From: Gemmatimonadaceae bacterium
Lineage (GTDB): Bacteria > Gemmatimonadota > Gemmatimonadetes > Gemmatimonadales > Gemmatimonadaceae
Direction: 5' to 3'
Length of the DNA: 64,000 nucleotides
NCBI GenBank assembly: GCA_016742275.1
Contig: JACVCD010000016.1
Location: forward strand, 1 to 64,000
The position numbers and the translations under genes are program-made. Under the pieces are notes generated by a model. It had not been told where the DNA came from. It saw nothing but the letters and a program-made list of their open reading frames with translations, and searched no databases. Positions 19,139-28,500 of this stretch are shown here, in pieces; the first letter of the stretch is position 1; every line of letters begins with the position of its first letter.

Positions 19139-20128
19139 ATGACCTCGGGAGCTTCTGTGCGACCCACCGTTGTCCCCAATTGGCGTGGCCAACTTGCCAG
19201 CCAGTTGGGGGCTCAACTGGGAAGAACCGCGCCGTGGCGTACACGGTTTGCACCGGCTCCCACGGGGTTCCTGCATCTCGGGCATTTGGTCAATGCACTG
19301 CATGTGTGGGGGATTGCCCGCGCACACGGTGGCTCGGTGCTGCTGCGCATTGAAGACCATGACCGCACGCGCTGTCGGCCGGAGTATGAAACCGCGCTCC
19401 TCGATGATCTCGACTGGTTAGGGTTCGAGCCGGACGAATTCGCCACCGCGGGTTTTCGGCAAGACATGCACACGCATCCGGCGAGGCAATCCAATCAGTC
19501 CGCGCGTTACGCGGCAGCGCTGAGTCGTCTGGATGCGCGGGGACTGGTGTACGCGTGCGAGTGCACACGACGCGACATCGCGCAGCTTGTGCCGCGACGC
19601 CCCGGTGAGGAAACGCGCTACCCTGGCACGTGCCGCACGCGTGTGGTGGACGGACGTCAGCACTTTGCACGGCGTGTGCAACTTGATGACATGCCGATCG
19701 TGTTCCGTGATCTTCGGCTCGGACACCTGGTTCAGACACCCGCCGCACAGTGCGGGGATGTGCTGGTGCGCGATCGACACGCGCAGTGGACGTATCAATT
19801 CGCGGTCGTCGTGGACGATCTCGCGCACGACGTCGACGTGATCATTCGCGGGGAAGACCTGCTGGACTCCACGGCGCGTCAGTGGATGCTGGCCGGATTG
19901 CTTGAGCGCGAACGCATGCCACTCACATTGCATCACGCGCTGATTGTGCACGCTGACGGCAGCAAATTGAGCAAGGCCAATCATGACACCGCACTTCATG
20001 AGTTGCGCGCGGCTGGGTACTCACGGGAACGATTGCTTGGCGAAGCCGCCTATCGTTCCGGACTCATTCCCGCGGCGCGCGACCTTCCGGTGCACGCCGC
20101 GGGAGAGTTGTTCCTCAGCGCTGGGTAA
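19139..20128 (+). CDS. gluQ: glutamyl-Q tRNA(Asp) synthetase
   Basis: Paralogue of glutamyl-tRNA synthetase lacking the anticodon-binding domain; it attaches glutamate to queuosine in tRNA-Asp. Seen: RFAPAPTGFLHLGHL with the HIGH-type motif HLGH (residues 46-49), LRIEDHDRTR, a zinc-site region YACECTRRDI...YPGTCR, the IIRGEDLLDST block and the KMSKS-type motif GSKLSKAN. Length is 329 residues, about 30 more than usual, because of an N-terminal extension with a GQLASQLGAQLG near-repeat. No Shine-Dalgarno precedes ATG 19139, and a hairpin touches it; GTG 19157 or TTG 19205 are alternative starts. The 3' end overlaps the convergent M20 peptidase gene by 14 bases. Confidence 0.9.
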   Translation: MTSGASVRPTVVPNWRGQLASQLGAQLGRTAPWRTRFAPAPTGFLHLGHLVNALHVWGIARAHGGSVLLRIEDHDRTRCRPEYETALLDDLDWLGFEPDEFATAGFRQDMHTHPARQSNQSARYAAALSRLDARGLVYACECTRRDIAQLVPRRPGEETRYPGTCRTRVVDGRQHFARRVQLDDMPIVFRDLRLGHLVQTPAAQCGDVLVRDRHAQWTYQFAVVVDDLAHDVDVIIRGEDLLDSTARQWMLAGLLERERMPLTLHHALIVHADGSKLSKANHDTALHELRAAGYSRERLLGEAAYRSGLIPAARDLPVHAAGELFLSAG

Positions 20129-21443
20129 GCAGCGACAGGGTCACCAGCAGGACCCATTGCGGTCCCTTGTAGCCATCCGTGCGATCGTCGTAGCTCTCAT
20201 CGAGTGAGTGGGCGCCGCGACCCACACCGCCGCCGTCGAGCGTGACAGCCGGAATGCCAAGATTCATCGGCACGTTGGAGTCGGTGCTCGAGATGGTGAG
20301 CGGCGCATAGAGATTCATGGTGCGAGCCGCCGCAAGCGAGGCACGCACGATGAACGTGCTGTCGTGCGTCGTGCCGGCAGGGCGAATACCGATGGTGTCG
20401 ATCACCAGCGACAGCGCGGCCTTGCTGCTCGGCCAGCGCGCCTTCTCTTCGCTCACGGCGTCACGCAGAGCCTTCTGCAAGCGCCCGTCGATTTCTGCGA
20501 GCGCCGACGCCGACTCACTACGCAGGTCGATGTCCATGGCCGCTTCGAACGGAATGGAATTGACCGACGTGCCGCCGGTCACGATACCGACGTTGAAAGT
20601 GACCTTGGGCTTCGATGACGCTTCGAGATCGGCGATCTTGGCGATGGCGCGACCCATGGCGTGAATGGGATTCGGCATGCCGAATGCGCCGTAGCTGTGT
20701 CCACCCAGGCCCTTGTAGTGCACGCGGTACCGATTGCTGCCCACGCCGCCGTTGGTGATACCGATGCCGGTGCCATCGACCGAAATGAACATGTCGATGG
20801 AATCCTTGAGCGTCTTGTTGAACAGCGCGCGTACGCCGCGAAGATTGCCGGGGCCTTCTTCGCCAACATTGCCGACGATCAGCAGACGGCCGTTGAACGG
20901 GACTTTCTGCGCCACGATCTGACGCGCGACCGCGAGGACCACGGCAAGGCCACGGCAGTCGTCGCCGATACCGGGGCCGGTCAGCTTGGTACCGTCACGC
21001 TTGACCGTGACATCCGTGCCTTCGGGAAACACCGTGTCGAGGTGACCGGCAAGCAGCAATGTGGGGCCGGGCTTCGTGCCACGGATTTCACCGATCACAT
21101 TGCCTTCGCCGTCGGTCCGAACCTGCTGCACGCCGATCGAGCGCATGCGTTCGGCGTACGAGGCCGCGCGCTTTTCTTCCTTGAACGGCGGCGCGGGGAT
21201 CTGACAAATCGACGCCTGCTGATCGAGTGTCCACGCGTTATCGCGCTGAATGGCCGCAATGGCACTGGCGACGGTTGGCGTGGCCGCGAGCTTGTCCACG
21301 CCACTTTCAAGGGCGGTGGGCTTGGCCTTGGCTGGCGTCTTGGCGGCTTGTGCGGCCTGCGCGTTGGCCACGACGGATGCCGAGACCATGAGCGCGGAAG
21401 TGAGCGCGGCGCGAGCGGCCACGGTGAGTCGAATCGATCGCAT
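20115..21443 (-). CDS. exported M20/M28-type metallopeptidase (PepT-like)
   Basis: A 442-residue M20-family zinc peptidase. A signal peptide (about residues 1-28, ending VVANAQA) directs export. Two-zinc site residues are visible: H134 and D136 in AGHLDTV, D161/D162 in GIGDDCRG, the catalytic E195 and E196 in VGEEGPGN, D in SVDGTG, and a late His in RGAHSLDE. The lid domain lies between (GLGGHSYGAFGMPNP). The overall pattern is close to tripeptide aminopeptidase-like proteins annotated M20/M25/M40. ATG 21443 is chosen because it gives a normal signal peptide; the ORF upstream overlaps the Rieske gene. The substrate is probably small peptides or acylated amino acids. Confidence 0.88.
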   Translation of the reverse strand: MRSIRLTVAARAALTSALMVSASVVANAQAAQAAKTPAKAKPTALESGVDKLAATPTVASAIAAIQRDNAWTLDQQASICQIPAPPFKEEKRAASYAERMRSIGVQQVRTDGEGNVIGEIRGTKPGPTLLLAGHLDTVFPEGTDVTVKRDGTKLTGPGIGDDCRGLAVVLAVARQIVAQKVPFNGRLLIVGNVGEEGPGNLRGVRALFNKTLKDSIDMFISVDGTGIGITNGGVGSNRYRVHYKGLGGHSYGAFGMPNPIHAMGRAIAKIADLEASSKPKVTFNVGIVTGGTSVNSIPFEAAMDIDLRSESASALAEIDGRLQKALRDAVSEEKARWPSSKAALSLVIDTIGIRPAGTTHDSTFIVRASLAAARTMNLYAPLTISSTDSNVPMNLGIPAVTLDGGGVGRGAHSLDESYDDRTDGYKGPQWVLLVTLSLLTQR

Positions 21444-21468
21444 CAGGGACTTGCGGGTTTGGGGGCGG

Positions 21469-22011
21469 TCAGACGCGCACGAGCGCCGCCGCCCACTTGG
21501 CAGGATCTGTGTCGCTGTGGAACAGGACGGCGGGGTCAACCACCACCACCGCTCCCTCCAACGTAATCTGCAACCGATCCATGTTCCGCGTGGCCTTTCC
21601 GCTGACAAAAGTCCCGTTCATCGTGTACTTGGACTTGTGGCGCGGGCACTGGAATCCGCCGTTTTTCGGCAGGGAACGCAGGGCCGTGTTCTGGTGCGGG
21701 CAGGAGAGGGCGAAGGCCATCACCTCGGCGCCGCTCCGGCACAGAATGACTTCATTGTTCTTGTCGATTGAGATCCCGTCTGCCGCTGGCACGGGATATC
21801 GCACAGCCTTGCTCCGGGAATCGGCCGTGCCCAGTGCACTATCTGAAGGCGCCGGGAGAGCTGCCAGCGTCTGCCAGGGAATCGTGCTGGAAAGGCCGAC
21901 GGCCGCCGCAGCGGCAGCCGCGGCTGATGTGAGGTCTCGCAAAAAGTCGCGGCGCGATTCAGTGGCGTGCGAAGCGACAGAACGCGCTGCGCAGGAATTG
22001 CAGTCGTGCAT
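21469..22011 (-). CDS. Tat-exported Rieske [2Fe-2S] protein
   Basis: A 180-residue Rieske protein. The cluster ligands are in SCPHQ (C104, H106) and FQCPRHKSKY (C122, H125). The N-terminus has a twin-arginine signal SRRDFLRDL and an unbroken run of alanines leading to LSSTIPW, so it is probably exported folded, either anchored by this helix or released. A ten-residue Cys/His-containing leader (MHDCNSCAAR) precedes the signal. It is the last gene of a three-gene minus-strand set with two small membrane proteins, which suggests a periplasmic electron-transfer role. No cytochrome bc1 or b6f gene is in the window, so it is not the Rieske subunit of a normal complex III by context. Confidence 0.88.
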   Translation of the reverse strand: MHDCNSCAARSVASHATESRRDFLRDLTSAAAAAAAAVGLSSTIPWQTLAALPAPSDSALGTADSRSKAVRYPVPAADGISIDKNNEVILCRSGAEVMAFALSCPHQNTALRSLPKNGGFQCPRHKSKYTMNGTFVSGKATRNMDRLQITLEGAVVVVDPAVLFHSDTDPAKWAAALVRV

Positions 22012-22055
22012 GATGTCGAGCGAAGAGTCAGGACGACGTGTTGTCAGAACGACGA

Positions 22056-22580
22056 CTACTGGTTGGATACCAGTACACCCAGAATGACGATTCCGAGCCA
22101 GCAAACGAGACTTCGCCAGGCGGCAGATCGCAGATGGCGCCAGGGGCCGGTGACTGTGGGACCGGCAATGGGTTCCTCACGTGTCTGCCGCGCCGCGCCG
22201 AGTAGTTGGGTCTCCGTGCGACGCATGAGCGCTCCATTCAGGAGCAGCAGCACGATGAGTCCCATCTTGGCCCAGAACAGACGAAGCGTCGCATAGCTCG
22301 CGACATCGGCCGCAGCCATGGCCAGACCACTGAGGATCGTGATCGACAGCATCGAGACGACCAGCCGATGTGTGCCCTGCAGATCTTCTGCAATGGCAAT
22401 GAAGCTCTCGCTCGATCCCGGCTCAGCGCGCAGCAGGCGACGATCGGTGGCTACTGCTACACCACCACCCACGAATACCGACACGACGTGTGCCGTGAGC
22501 ACCACCAAGGGCAGTACCGCACTGGCCGCATAGTAATCGGCCCACGGTTGCAACGATGTGGCGAGCGATTCGAACACCAT
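22056..22580 (-). CDS. four-helix membrane protein, putative redox partner
   Basis: A 174-residue integral membrane protein with four predicted helices (about 20-45, 70-97, 100-122 and 150-172). Histidines sit at helix ends or inside helices 1 and 2 (LVVLTAHVVSVF and QGTHRLVVSML), positions that could bind a heme or quinone. I do not recognise a named family with certainty. It starts 6 bases after the stop of the upstream gene and ends 44 bases before the Rieske gene, so the three are very likely co-transcribed. A redox role is inferred from that context only. Confidence 0.75.
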   Translation of the reverse strand: MVFESLATSLQPWADYYAASAVLPLVVLTAHVVSVFVGGGVAVATDRRLLRAEPGSSESFIAIAEDLQGTHRLVVSMLSITILSGLAMAAADVASYATLRLFWAKMGLIVLLLLNGALMRRTETQLLGAARQTREEPIAGPTVTGPWRHLRSAAWRSLVCWLGIVILGVLVSNQ

Positions 22581-22586
22581 GCGTGA

Positions 22587-23252
22587 TCAGTTGCCGATTT
22601 TCATGAGTAGCCAACTGGCGGTGGATAGTCCCATGGAACTCAGGGCCACCGTGCGATGTTGACGTCGTTTTTCTGCGGATTCCTCGGCCTGTTCCGCCAG
22701 GACGGAGCCGGCATAGGTAAAGCCGCCGCTTGCCGCGAGGAACATTGCGCTATGGAGTAGACGGCGCTTACGGCCATTTTCATCCTTGCGACCTTCCCAC
22801 AGGTTCCACACACCAGTCACGGTGTTGGCACCAAACAGCACGGCGGCGCCGGTGGCCGCCACAGGGTGCACGTTGCGCGCCCACTGTGGCGCGTCGTCCC
22901 CCTTGGACAACAGCTGGTCGCCCGACACATAGGATGCGGCAAACAGCGGGAGCATGGCCCAGCTCAAGGCACGGTGCACCGCCAGGCGCTTGTAATACGC
23001 ATCACTGTATTCGACGGCGCGCGCGCGTTGCCGGATGGTGTCCTGGGGAACCCACGAGTGTGTGGTGGTGTCGAGCGAATAGGAACCAGATGTGAGGGCT
23101 GCTGGTTGCCATACAGGCCCTCCCTGACGCACGGAATCCTGCCCGGCTTCCTGTCGGACGGCCCGCAGGGAGTCCGAGGGCTCGGCTGCCGGAGCAACGC
23201 TGCTCTGCCATCCGAGCATGAGAACCACGGTCACAGTCGATAACGACGGCAT
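22587..23252 (-). CDS. exported membrane protein with four histidine-bearing helices
   Basis: About 221 residues. A signal peptide is followed by a polar region (residues 28-90) and four hydrophobic helices. Each helix begins with or contains a histidine: VHRALSWAMLPLF, NVHPVAATGAAVLF, LLHSAMFLAASGGF and QHRTVALSSMGLS. This spacing is reminiscent of four-helix b-type cytochromes (cytochrome b561-like) but no named family is certain. The start at 23252 gives a normal signal peptide; an ORF extension to 23336 overlaps the divergent Omp85 gene. It is the first gene of the set that ends with the Rieske protein. Confidence 0.75.
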   Translation of the reverse strand: MPSLSTVTVVLMLGWQSSVAPAAEPSDSLRAVRQEAGQDSVRQGGPVWQPAALTSGSYSLDTTTHSWVPQDTIRQRARAVEYSDAYYKRLAVHRALSWAMLPLFAASYVSGDQLLSKGDDAPQWARNVHPVAATGAAVLFGANTVTGVWNLWEGRKDENGRKRRLLHSAMFLAASGGFTYAGSVLAEQAEESAEKRRQHRTVALSSMGLSTASWLLMKIGN

Positions 23253-23350
23253 GCACAACCCCGATACGAGTAGGGCAACGTGAGAACGGCTGCCGCAATC
23301 TATGTCCAGCGCATGAACGGCGGATGATGGCCGCAATTACATTGCGGGCA
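23253..23350. promoter_or_regulatory. divergent intergenic region
   Basis: A 98-base region between the Rieske-unit operon (minus) and the Omp85-tamB operon (plus). It must contain both promoters; no confident boxes are seen. Confidence 0.35.
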
Positions 23351-25588
23351 ATGTCTCGGACACGTATCGCCCGGATTCCCCTACTGGTGTGGTCGGCCCT
23401 GCTGCTGCATTTGGCATGGGCCGCTCCGGTGTTGGCTCAGCGAACCCAGCGTTGCGATGATGATGAGCGCGTCGAACGCGTGCGCTTCAGTGGCAGCCCC
23501 GTGTTCGATGATCTCACGATGGCGATGAACCTGGTCACGCACGAGCCGGGGTATTTCGCGCGCACCTTTGGTCTTGGGTCGCGTCCCTGCATGGATTCGC
23601 TGGAAGTCCGGCGTGACGCACTGCGACTGGCAGTGCTCCATCGTCAGGCCGGTTGGTACCGCGCCGATGTGTCGCCGGTGTTCGACAAGCGGAAGGACGG
23701 TGTACGCATCACGTTTGCCATTCTGCCGGGCCCCGAAGCGATCATTGACTCGGTGACGGTGACCGGTCTACCGGACTCGCCCAATATCCGACGACCCTTT
23801 CCCGCGCCGCTGGAAGCGCTGAAGGACAAGCGATTCGATCGCAGCATGGTGGACACGGTGGTCGCGTCGGTGGTGAATCGCTTGCGCGATGCGGGCTTTG
23901 CGCGTGCCACGTTCCCGCAGAACACGGTCACCATTGACAGTGCTACGTCGAAGGTGACCCTCGCGATGAATTTCGTGACGGGGCCTCGCACTGTTATCGG
24001 CGAGGTGAAGGTCACCGTACGACCATTGCGTGAGGGCGACGCACGAGTGGACTCGGCTGACGTGGCGCGTCTGGTGGCGATCAATCCAGGCGATCGCTAT
24101 CGGTCGAGTGCCATTCTGGAGGCGCAGCGCGCGCTGTATCGCTCCGAGGCGTTCCGGTTGGTGCTCCTGGACACCCTGCCAGCTGACAGCGCACGTCCGG
24201 ATAGTGTGCTGGATCTGCGTGTGACGGTTGCCGAGGCGCGTACGCGTTCGGCACGTGCGGGGCTTGGGTGGGCAACACTCGAGTGTGGTCGTGCGCAGGG
24301 GCGCGTAACGGATCGAGGATTTCTCGGCGTTGGACGTCGAGTCGAGTTGTCGGCGAGGGCTTCCAAGATCTTCATCGCCGACCCACTAGGGTTTGCGCCG
24401 GCGCTGTGCTCTGATGCGCTGCGAGAAGATCCGTTCAGCGCCGACACGATTCCGCTCAACTACTATGTCGGGACGACGCTTTCCAACACGCGCCTGTTTG
24501 GTTTGCCGGTCGTTCCTATGGTGTCGTTGTACAGCGAGCGGCGTGCAGAGCCTTTTGCATACCTCCGTGAAACCACTGTGGGTGCGTTGGCTGAACTGTC
24601 ACGTCAGTTCACACCGCGCCTGTCCGGTACGGCGGGTTACCAGTACGAAAATGGACGAACGATCATTGATCCGGTGGTGTCGTGCACGCGTCTTGGACAG
24701 TGCCGGCCGGAGGAATTGGCGGTGTCGTTCTTTGGTCGTGGTATCAGCATTCTGAGCACGTCGGCCAGCTACGATCGTACCAATGATCCGGCCAATCCAT
24801 CCCGAGGGTTTCGCACGCGCGGTGAACTGCGTGCTGGCCGAACGGTTTCCGAGATTGTGTCGACGGTACAGTTCTATCGCACATCGGCCGAGGGCTCGGT
24901 GTTTCAACGTGCGCTCGGAGGTGTGTTCGGCGTGCGAGTTCAAGCCGCGGCGGCGTTTGCTCCCGGAGCCGAGTTGATTGGTGGCACTCCGCTGCTACCA
25001 CAGCAGGAACGCATGTTCGTGGGAGGACAGAATTCGGTGCGCGGCTATCAGCAAAATCTGCTGGGACCAGTCACGTATGTTGTCGACTCCGTTGTGCAGT
25101 TCACGAACGAAGCGGGTGATATTGAAGTCGAAGTTGCCCCTGGCAGTACAGCGCGCGCCGTGCCCCGTGGTGGTACCGCGATGCTGGTTGGCAACTTCGA
25201 ATATCGCCGCAATTTCCGGTTTATCGCCGAACAGTTCCAGTTGGCCGCATTCGTCGATGCGGGCGCGCTGTGGGAAACGAGTAGCGCGTCATTCAAGTGG
25301 AGTGACATGCGCGCTACGCCCGGTATCGGACTACGCGTGATCACACCGCTGGGGCCATTCCGCGTCGATATTGGTTACCGGCCTTATGGACTTCGCTCCG
25401 GATCGGCACTGTATTTCTCGTCGAACCAGGAACTTGCTCCGATCATGTGTGCCAGTCCGCGAGTCGAAGGGCGCTCGCTTGAGGACTATCAGAACGTGAT
25501 TGATTGTCCGGCGACGTTCGCTCCACCCAAGGCGCGCGGCGTGCTATCACGTCTGGTGTTCCACTTCGGGCTCGGCCAGGCTTTCTGA
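23351..25588 (+). CDS. Omp85 family outer-membrane assembly protein (TamA/BamA-like)
   Basis: A 745-residue Omp85 protein. A signal peptide ends near residue 30 (APVLAQ). POTRA-type domains (about 45-300) contain repeats such as VRFSGSPVFDD and IIDSVTVTGLPDSPNIR. A 16-strand barrel spans about 325-745, with the diagnostic loop-6 motif SVRGYQ and the terminal strand LVFHFGLGQAF ending in Phe. The next gene is TamB and its start overlaps this stop, so the pair is best read as the TamA-TamB translocation and assembly module. A second BamA is expected elsewhere in the genome. ATG 23351 is preferred to 23324 because it gives a compact signal peptide. Confidence 0.92.
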   Translation: MSRTRIARIPLLVWSALLLHLAWAAPVLAQRTQRCDDDERVERVRFSGSPVFDDLTMAMNLVTHEPGYFARTFGLGSRPCMDSLEVRRDALRLAVLHRQAGWYRADVSPVFDKRKDGVRITFAILPGPEAIIDSVTVTGLPDSPNIRRPFPAPLEALKDKRFDRSMVDTVVASVVNRLRDAGFARATFPQNTVTIDSATSKVTLAMNFVTGPRTVIGEVKVTVRPLREGDARVDSADVARLVAINPGDRYRSSAILEAQRALYRSEAFRLVLLDTLPADSARPDSVLDLRVTVAEARTRSARAGLGWATLECGRAQGRVTDRGFLGVGRRVELSARASKIFIADPLGFAPALCSDALREDPFSADTIPLNYYVGTTLSNTRLFGLPVVPMVSLYSERRAEPFAYLRETTVGALAELSRQFTPRLSGTAGYQYENGRTIIDPVVSCTRLGQCRPEELAVSFFGRGISILSTSASYDRTNDPANPSRGFRTRGELRAGRTVSEIVSTVQFYRTSAEGSVFQRALGGVFGVRVQAAAAFAPGAELIGGTPLLPQQERMFVGGQNSVRGYQQNLLGPVTYVVDSVVQFTNEAGDIEVEVAPGSTARAVPRGGTAMLVGNFEYRRNFRFIAEQFQLAAFVDAGALWETSSASFKWSDMRATPGIGLRVITPLGPFRVDIGYRPYGLRSGSALYFSSNQELAPIMCASPRVEGRSLEDYQNVIDCPATFAPPKARGVLSRLVFHFGLGQAF

Positions 25589-28500
25589 TGATGACCATGA
25601 CCTCCCGTCAACGGCGCTTCTGGTGGGCGGCAGCGATTTTGCTGGCGCTTGGCGTCGGCTTGGCTGGAACCGCGTCGTGGTTCGTGAATTCGGCGGCGGG
25701 TCGTAAATGGTTGGCGCGCACGATGGCCGAGCAGGGTAGCGCGATCTTCAAGGGGCGCGGGTCTCTGCACATCGGTCGACTGGTGCGAGTCGGTCGGAGT
25801 GGTGTCGTGGCGGACACGGTGATGCTGCTCGACACGGCGGGTGTTCCGGTCATGACCGCGTCGCGCGTGGAGGCCTCGATCCGTTGGATGGGGCTCCTGG
25901 ATAGTCGCATTCATATCCCGACACTACGTGTCAGTGGTATGCGACTGTCGTTGCGTCAGGACAAGGCGGGCACGCCGTGGAATATTGCGTATATCATCGC
26001 TGGTGATACCACGCCTCCAGAGCCCAAGCTCACCCCGGGTTTTGGCGATGATGTGCGCATCGATGACATCGCCTTGAGTGATGGTGAGGTCACGACCGTC
26101 GCGCCGTGGGAACCACATCCCATATTCACCGGCGCCGCGCGCGACAGCGTGATCGCCGTGCGTGACAGTCTGCAGGACATGACCCGTGCTGCGGACGGCA
26201 CCTGGTTTGAACGCCGCGTGATCACGTTGCCGCGTGTACGCGCGCACGACGCCATCATCGTTGATCCGCAAAAACGTCCGTCGTCGATAGCACTCGACAC
26301 CGTGGTGGGTGTGATCTCCAGTCCGCCGATTCCGTTGCGTCATGCTTCGGGGCGTGTGGTATGGACTGGCGATTCACTGACATTCGATCTCGATCAGGTG
26401 CGGTTGCCAGCGTCATCAGCGCGCGCCAAGGGACTGGTGGCGTGGAATCAACCGGGGCCGGTGCGCTACTCCGCCACCGTGCATGCCGACGCTGGCTTAT
26501 CGGATCTCACGTGGATCTGGGATGCACTGCCGTCGGAAGGCCGCGGACAGGCCGTCGTGCATATGCGCACGTTGGCCGACGCCAATGACGCCGAGTATCT
26601 GCTCGATTCTTTGCGTGTCGAGAGCAAGGGCTCTCGCGTCGGTGGCCGGATTGGTGTGACTGTTCGTCCCGCGGATCTCCTGCTGCACAGCGCGGACCTG
26701 ACGTTCTCTCCACTCCGCGACGATCTGTTGCGTCGTCTTTCGTACGATGGGCTGCCTCCCGAGGTCCGCGGCACGTTTGAAGGACGACTGGTCGCGGAGC
26801 GCGGCGGTCCGCTTCGCGCATTGCCAATCGATCTGCTGCGCATGCGATTCACGGATGCCAACGCATCGGGCGCGGTGTCCGAGGTAACATTACGAGGCGA
26901 GGTCGGTATTGGTGCCGCGCCGCGCGCGCGCAATCTCGTGGCGGACGCGTTCACGATCGATCTGCGCAGTGTGCGGCAATTTGCACCTGATGCGCCTGCC
27001 GCCGATGGTCGGATTACCGGCAACGTGCGACTGCGTGAAGCGGATCTGTCGCGCGCTGATGTATCATCTATCGCGCTGCAATGGACGGATGCTGCAGGCA
27101 ATGTGTCCAACGTGCGCGGTGAAGATATTCGCGCGCGCTATGACCGGGAGCCGTTTGCGGTGCGCGGCAATTTCGTGCTCGAGCCGCTCTCCATGCTGGC
27201 GCTTGCGCGCATCGACACCACGCTGATTGCCCGTGCGCCGATCAGTGGTCGTATTGCGGTGGATGGCTCGCTGGACGCGTTGCGCTGGAATGGCTTGCTG
27301 GTGGCATCAGCCACCTTGCCGGCCTCCTGGCCTACCACATGGCCCTCGTTGGCTTCTGCGGACAGCACGCTCACACCGGATTCGCTATCCAGCATGCGTC
27401 CTCCCGAGAGTGAGAACGTGCCGGGCAGCATTGCCGTGGCGGGCACTGCGAGCGTGCGTGACAGCAGTTGGCGTGCCTCGGGCAACGGTCGCATTCTGGG
27501 CTTTGACGTGCAGCGTTGGCTTGGGCAGGGTGACATGCCAGCAACAGCCGTGAATGGCACCATCGCATTCAATGCGCAGGGCACACTGCCAGCGGACAGC
27601 ACGATTGCGCCTCTGATCACCGGTCGTGTGCTCGCGAACGTGGAACAGCAACCATCGGAGTCGAGGCCAGCGCTTACACTCGTCACATCCGTGAGCGCGG
27701 ACTCGTTGCATATCAATGTTGATTCCGCCGTGGCAACACTGGGGCAGGTGTTGTTCGACGCGCGCGGTGCACTGGGACGTGATAGCAGTGTCACGGATAC
27801 GCTCCAGTTCAGCCTGCGCGCAGATTCGCTGGAAACTGTGCGGACAGAGTTCGAGCGGCTTGCCGCGATGTTGCAGCCGATGGATAGTGCGCTCGCCGCC
27901 ACCATACGGAGTACCGCCGCCGACACTCTGCGAGGCGACGCGTCATTGTCCGGCTATCTCATGGGCAATGTGAAGGTGGCGGAAGCGACGGCCGCACTGG
28001 GTGGACGTGCATTGCAGGTTGGCACCATTCAGATGGGGCGTCTGTTCGGCTCGCTGCGAGCCACGGACGTTTTCAATCGTCCGGCGTTCGAAGGGGCGGC
28101 TTCTGCGGATGACGTCACCGGACTTGGCGCGGCACGTGTGCAATCGGCCAATTTCCGCGTAGCCGCCGCTACGCCAGACAGCGGACAACTGGTGCTCGAC
28201 GTGAGTACCGTGGACAATGCACACCTGGTTGTGCGCGGCGGATACGCGGTGGTGGATACGCGCACATCGGTCACCCTGGATTCGATCCGCCTCACGTACG
28301 ATGATGTGACTTGGCGGGAGGCAAAGCCGAGCACGATCGTGATCGATTCGGCGAGTCTGTCGTTGACTCCACTCGAGCTGCGTTCCAACGGCAAGGGTGT
28401 ATTTGCCGTTGAAGCGCAGATTCCCGAACAGGGCGCCATCAAAGGCAGCATTCGTCTCGAAGATTTTCCTGCCGGTGAGGTGAGTGCGCTGCTGGCCGGA

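Follow-up and report, generated by a model that had tools for sequence, protein, structure and literature searches.

Outside the oxygenases, Rieske proteins are known mainly from cytochrome bc and b6f complexes and from arsenite oxidase. The helices of cytochrome b carry paired histidines; the cytochrome b561 family has a core of four helices, each with one histidine, and its two hemes lie on opposite sides. A designed protein, 4D2, is described in a passage of PMC10400981 as a diheme four-helix protein that was modelled on cytochrome b and consists of four copies of one helix, with four histidines ligating two hemes across opposite helices.

We analyzed a stretch of 64,000 nucleotides from a Gemmatimonadaceae bacterium (contig JACVCD010000016.1 of assembly GCA_016742275.1), referred to below as the window. 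An original prediction, made from the letters of this DNA, had placed three tightly spaced genes at 21469–23252. The open reading frames were found there, separated by gaps of 6 and 44 bases, and the locus is arranged as follows.

22587–23252, minus strand: P0001, four-helix membrane protein (221-aa ORF)
22056–22580, minus strand: P0002, four-helix membrane protein (174-aa ORF, 6 bases downstream of P0001)
21469–22011, minus strand: R1, Tat-type Rieske protein (180 aa from ATG, 44 bases downstream of P0002)
Upstream of P0001, divergent: Omp85-type gene (assigned with Pfam)
Downstream of R1: M20 peptidase gene (assigned with Pfam)

These genes share several features with the Rieske/cytochrome b complexes (bc1, b6f and the anammox variants), namely a Tat-type Rieske protein with CxH and CxxH ligands and, in R1, a Ser/Tyr pair, as well as a helical membrane partner, for which stacked hemes are predicted here. 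However, the membrane proteins match no cytochrome b family, and P0001 has one histidine per helix instead of the paired histidines of cytochrome b helices. The locus further differs from bc1 and b6f in that no c-type cytochrome gene recurrently adjoins it and two different Rieske genes are often present. Since neither membrane protein matched the cytochrome b profile PF00033 and R1 lies below the cut-offs for bc1 and b6f Rieske proteins, we do not regard the genes as members of the Rieske/cytochrome b family; they may still work like such a unit.

A recurrent gene cassette in Gemmatimonadota

The three genes form a repeatedly found cassette, often accompanied by a fourth gene, R2, which encodes a second Rieske protein. 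Searches of 61 genomes (the window's own and 60 relatives) revealed all three genes in 38, none in 22 and P0002 alone in one, with R1 counted at E ≤ 1e-10, a threshold that leaves out weak matches in two genomes without the other genes. The phylogenetic profile, which had been proposed as a check, thus finds the trio together or absent in 60 of 61 genomes. In a wider sample of Gemmatimonadota, P0001-type genes are present in 72 of 249 genomes (89 matches). The only P0001 and P0002 matches of the window genome are the copies in the window.

Gene order was read in 60 stretches picked for P0001- or P0002-type genes; two without a P0001-type gene were dropped and the window was added, giving 59 loci from 30 genera. 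These loci hold 63 P0001-type genes, comprising 61 of the 89 matches and two from other relatives. P0002 and R1 stand beside 45 of the 63, of which 32 also have R2 and 13 do not, and 56 have at least one of these partners. The remaining genes are accompanied by R2 only (seven), by R1 and R2 (two), by P0002 and R2 (one) or by P0002 only (one), and seven stand alone, some of them near contig ends. With seven genes alone and seven beside R2 only, the full gene set is not obligatory. Counted by genus, P0002 and R1 adjoin P0001 in 27/30 and all four genes occur together in 19/30. The three types lie on one strand in 43 of the 59 loci and in a common order in most of these: P0001-P0002-R1 in 35, with R2 directly after in 22. 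Another order, for example P0001-R2-P0002-R1, is found in the other eight.

The genes around the cassette vary. Its 115 immediate flanking genes fall into 77 clusters, the ten commonest of which each occur in at most four genera, and the Omp85-type and M20 peptidase flanks are found next to the cassette in the window's genus only, among the loci read. This recurrence of one gene set in changing surroundings indicates a self-contained unit. Among the 322 ORFs predicted in the flanks up to 3 kb away, only 4 have a CxxCH motif, two of the four in one cluster, and there is thus no recurring c-type cytochrome partner. No partner enzyme recurs in these flanks, from which 16 ORFs of relatives were run through Pfam. 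A search of 72,556 plasmid records with P0001 and R1 gave no match, and a genome contig scan run with one protein matched the query's own organism only. At the window locus itself, Rfam had no match in 20000–26000 and a promoter scan found none; a terminator scan gave 4 candidates against 1.3 expected, none of them 3' of the three-gene run on its strand. The window also encodes, at 19139–20128, a GluQRS-like tRNA glutamyl-Q synthetase, whose gene has an Rrf2 regulator on one side and the M20 peptidase on the other and which scores just under the NCBIfam cut-offs (235 versus 250 and 276.7 bits).

Six loci (L094, L100, L171, L139, L145 and L102) from four genera have, close to the cassette and in no constant orientation, a gene for a TonB-receptor-like protein that contains a carboxypeptidase-regulatory domain. 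Five members of this receptor cluster were scanned with Pfam; four exceed the Plug cut-off and one fails. An ECF sigma factor is present in four of the six loci and an anti-sigma-like gene in three of the six; these three loci belong to one genus, and there the anti-sigma-like protein, which has no Pfam match, is encoded just upstream of the cassette. The receptor and sigma factor genes, together with a weak similarity of P0002 to CopD and DUF2214, speak for the chief rival to a Rieske/b-heme complex, in which the cassette would be an extracytoplasmic ferric or cupric reductase whose hemes carry electrons outward and whose Rieske proteins pass them to metal chelates, for uptake or defence. Two-heme four-helix ferric reductases are known from the cytochrome b561 family. 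The receptor association is nevertheless limited to 6 of 59 loci, and "anti-sigma" is a reading of a protein without a Pfam match; moreover, a high-potential Rieske protein would be an odd donor to ferric iron. We therefore consider a metal reductase unlikely.

Two types of Rieske protein

R1 had been described as a Tat-exported Rieske protein, and this assignment is borne out by profile scores above the cut-offs for the Pfam Rieske family (PF00355; 30.0 versus 20.3 bits) and for the NCBIfam Tat signal (25.3 versus 16.7 bits). Its predicted cluster ligands, C104-x-H106 and C122-x-x-H125, are conserved in 67, 67, 67 and 66 of 67 related sequences. By profile and ligands, R1 is a Rieske protein and a predicted [2Fe-2S] binder. 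It remains far under the NCBIfam cut-offs for bc1 and b6f Rieske proteins (24.8 versus 97.4 bits for TIGR01416, 26.2 versus 250 for Cytb6fFeSPetC and 26.7 versus 154 for PRK13474.1), and it lacks the disulfide cysteine pair, as do 64 of the 66 R1-type sequences with a complete motif. Among PDB sequences, R1 matches 9rk4 best (E 5.4e-8), and this entry code is mentioned in an anammox Rieske paper (PMC12954380).

R2 is a Tat lipoprotein, with twin arginines followed by a lipobox-like cysteine in 80 of 80 sequences. The two types differ at the positions that tune the cluster potential. R1 has S127 and Y129 there, and among sequences with a complete motif 63 of 66 R1 share this Ser/Tyr pair, while 68 of 77 R2 have Ala/Phe instead. 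According to passages of PMC12954380, hydrogen bonds from Ser and Tyr at these positions raise the potential of respiratory Rieske clusters, with mutant shifts of 130 mV for Ser and 65 mV for Tyr, and in one case the rule fails. Given these shifts and the Ala/Phe pair, R2 should have a lower potential than R1.

Ahead of the twin arginines R20R21, R1 contains a further cysteine pair, C4xxC7. A CxxC in this place is conserved in both Rieske types (65 and 64 of 67 sequences in R1, 70 and 79 of 80 in R2). One genus has a longer R2 of 286–307 aa (L147:5647–6570, L148:7871–8737 and L174:2401–3261); with its two Rieske stretches, the L147 protein looks like a fused tandem.

No R2 is linked to the cassette in the window genome. 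Away from the cassette, on contig C25 (L190:4542–6032), this genome encodes a 496-aa protein with a CxxC, twin arginines, a lipobox-like cysteine and two R2-like Rieske domains (41% and 53% identity), which lie ~220 residues apart. This two-domain Rieske lipoprotein might stand in for R2.

Two histidine-bearing membrane proteins

P0001 consists of an N-terminal hydrophobic stretch, a linker of ~70 residues and four hydrophobic segments, each with one histidine near its start (H93, H129, H167 and H199). P0002 carries H31 in its first helix and H71 close to where its second helix starts, in agreement with the prediction of a four-helix protein with two intramembrane histidines. The original prediction had staked its reading on whether these histidines are conserved in homologues, and they are. 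All four of P0001 are invariant in three sets of related sequences: 37/37 (one 84-aa fragment left out), 24/24, and 81/81 in a set of sequences that cover >60% of the profile, with identical C-termini removed, among which near-identical copies may remain. Both histidines of P0002 are invariant in 39/39 and 69/69 related sequences. The other histidines listed are each present in only 1/37 relatives of P0001 and 1/39 relatives of P0002, which argues that the placement of the invariant ones is more than chance. Further invariant residues of P0002, in sets of 29 and 69 sequences, are G40, A42, D46, G85, K105, N115, G116, S157 and W161.

In P0001, the histidines sit 8–12 residues ahead of each hydrophobic helix centre. 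Since successive helices alternate up and down, H93 and H167 should lie at one membrane face and H129 and H199 at the other. This is the layout that two stacked bis-His hemes would have, making P0001 a candidate diheme protein; P0002 is a candidate heme b protein. That P0001 has a histidine in each of four helices agrees with the original prediction, which had also called the protein exported. On this second point its topology, including any signal-peptide cleavage, is ambiguous: no positive charge precedes the first hydrophobic stretch, and the loop between helices 2 and 3, which would be outside if the N-terminus were exported, is the most positive of the three short loops, so that loop charges do not favour an outside N-terminus.

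Neither protein reached a Pfam or NCBIfam cut-off. In Pfam, P0001 scored 20.7 bits against DUF4079 (cut-off 31.4) and 17.6 against DUF420, the CtaM family (30.5), and P0002 scored 20.7 against DUF2214 (34.1), 19.6 against DUF6644 (27.0) and 19.3 against CopD (32.1). All of these are families of small membrane proteins, and the similarity is weak and covers part of the helices (17.6–20.7 bits for the window proteins versus cut-offs of 27.0–34.1). Among Pfam matches at E ≤ 1, PF00033 is absent for both proteins and cytochrome b561 is absent for P0001; nor is cytochrome b561 among the seven Pfam families listed at E ≤ 0.1 for the 24 members of the P0001 set. P0001 thus resembles cytochrome b561 in having one invariant histidine per core helix at two levels and differs from it in lacking a match to the family profile. 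In the P0002 set, DUF6644 matches 18 of 29 sequences at E ≤ 0.1 (best E 2.4e-6).

In a search of PDB sequences with the P0001 profile, nothing matched at E ≤ 1 except the two forms of 4D2 (E 0.095 and 0.33, both non-significant), with no single stretch significant alone (i-Evalues of at least 190). The ligation pattern of 4D2 equals the one inferred for P0001, but 4D2 is man-made and water-soluble, and the similarity at E 0.095 is not significant. An AF2 model of P0001 built from two sequences is weak (mean pLDDT 60.7). 4D2 aligns to it with Z 11.8 and rmsd 2.1 over 103 residues, and cytochrome b6 with Z 12.0; on this weak model unrelated designed bundles of other purpose reach Z 15.8, and a Z near 12 is not above background for a helical bundle. 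The P0002 profile matched a single PDB sequence at E ≤ 1, that of the formate dehydrogenase-N heme b subunit (E 0.32, non-significant), and a fold search with the weak AF2 model of P0002 (mean pLDDT 59.0) gave no lead (best E 2.2, best Z 7.9). Two evolutionary relations were also considered and rejected, namely an internal 2+2 repeat in P0001 (probability 1.5%, with a weak alignment that pairs the second histidine of each half) and shared ancestry of P0001 and P0002 (hhalign probability 0.6%).

The weak family similarities could also be read as a sign that P0001 and P0002 are maturation or assembly factors, which would handle heme or copper for a terminal oxidase while the Rieske protein only supplies electrons for maturation. 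DUF420 is matched weakly in Pfam by 8 of the 24 members of the P0001 set (best E 0.004), and CopD and UPF0093 by 4/29 and 5/29 members of the P0002 set. CtaM, which has a DUF420 domain, is required for the assembly of active cytochrome oxidase, according to passages of PMC8239418 (see also PMC4958251). However, the family matches of both window proteins are below the cut-offs, and the 16 flanking ORFs from relatives that were run through Pfam gave no match to an oxidase domain. Nor is CtaM known to act together with Rieske proteins, and we judge this reading improbable. A passage of PMC8239418 suggests DUF420 as the root of the heme A synthases and another paper disputes this, so that the origin of DUF420 gives no firm lead. 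Passages from the literature on DUF420/CtaM-type proteins make no link to Rieske proteins.

A proposed Rieske/b-heme complex and its relation to complex III

The cassette had been described as a minimal membrane electron-transfer device. With the histidines conserved, this remains the best-supported reading, to which must be added the second Rieske lipoprotein, R2, overlooked in the original prediction and present in 32 of the 45 trio cases. The gene products probably belong to a small electron-transfer complex of the Rieske/b-heme type in the membrane, for which we infer heme binding, histidine pairing and complex formation. The nature of the parts indicates that electrons pass between hemes in the membrane and Rieske clusters outside the cytoplasm. 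The four helices of P0001 would form a bundle around two bis-His hemes, stacked from one side of the membrane to the other; H93 (helix 1) and H167 (helix 3) would ligate one heme, and H129 (helix 2) and H199 (helix 4) the second. P0002 would be a second four-helix heme b protein, with one heme held by H31 and H71, and would probably meet the quinone pool. Electrons would move between the quinone pool and the side of the membrane that faces away from the cytoplasm, where the Rieske clusters take them up; both the direction and the quinone link are guesses. They may pass through the lipoprotein R2, where present, with its lower predicted potential, and then through R1, with its higher predicted potential, to a soluble acceptor such as cytochrome c, itself a guess. 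We suggest only tentatively that quinol feeds the complex and that its electrons go outward to a soluble acceptor.

The absence of bc1 genes noted in the original prediction is correct for the neighbourhood of the cassette; elsewhere the genome has a pair of Rieske-like and cytochrome b genes. On contig C20 (L191:3959–6324), the first gene encodes a 188-aa twin-arginine protein whose Rieske match is weak (36% identity to R2, E 1.9e-4). The second encodes a cytochrome b of 599 aa, which contains two CxxCH motifs and is the single PF00033 match of the genome. This pair is likely the bc-type complex of the window genome. The contig of the window itself, C27, carries an NrfD-family gene 5.2 kb beyond the end of the window. 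NrfD-family proteins are expected of alternative complex III. We rejected the idea that the cassette replaces complex III, given the bc-type gene pair and the NrfD-family gene in the genome and a presence that is independent of PF00033. Among 249 genomes, 40 have both P0001 and PF00033, 32 only P0001, 96 only PF00033 and 81 neither (odds ratio 1.05, Fisher p 0.89).

The same counts bear on a more far-reaching reading, in which the cassette is an independent bc-type complex. Its two stacked b hemes and high-potential Rieske protein would oxidize quinol with bifurcation and run a Q cycle, and its membrane protein would have an origin other than cytochrome b. The core redox parts are there, since the membrane bundle is predicted to bind two hemes and the Rieske protein has Ser/Tyr at the tuning positions, and 32 of the 72 genomes with P0001-type genes lack a PF00033 match. 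Against this, no quinone site was identified, the presence of the cassette is unrelated to PF00033, and NrfD-family proteins occur in 43 of 43 good-quality genomes among the 61 searched, which leaves no gap for a bc-type cassette to fill. We consider this reading very unlikely. There is a rather slim chance that Gemmatimonadota possess an independently evolved miniature bc-type complex for quinol-linked, perhaps bifurcating, transfer alongside the ordinary complexes, in which a four-helix protein without relation to cytochrome b houses the two stacked b hemes and is joined by another heme protein and by one or two Rieske proteins with graded potentials.

For the Rieske/b-heme electron-transfer complex that we favour, the claim that it matches no named complex agrees with our searches, which gave no name in Pfam, in NCBIfam or in the open-licence PMC literature as far as its titles, abstract openings and passages go. 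Judged by titles and abstract openings, and by passages of PMC8239418, PMC12954380, PMC12808453, PMC5449189 and PMC10400981, this literature does not describe such a cassette.

Rieske proteins combined with unrelated small membrane proteins, recurrently across a phylum, may represent a separate solution to membrane electron transfer. The only conserved histidines of both membrane proteins are placed as heme ligands would be, and this offers a first hint at what uncharacterized membrane domains resembling DUF4079, DUF2214 and DUF6644 may do. The cassette is small enough to be expressed whole. If it handles quinol, it would bear on whether bc-type chemistry has a single origin.
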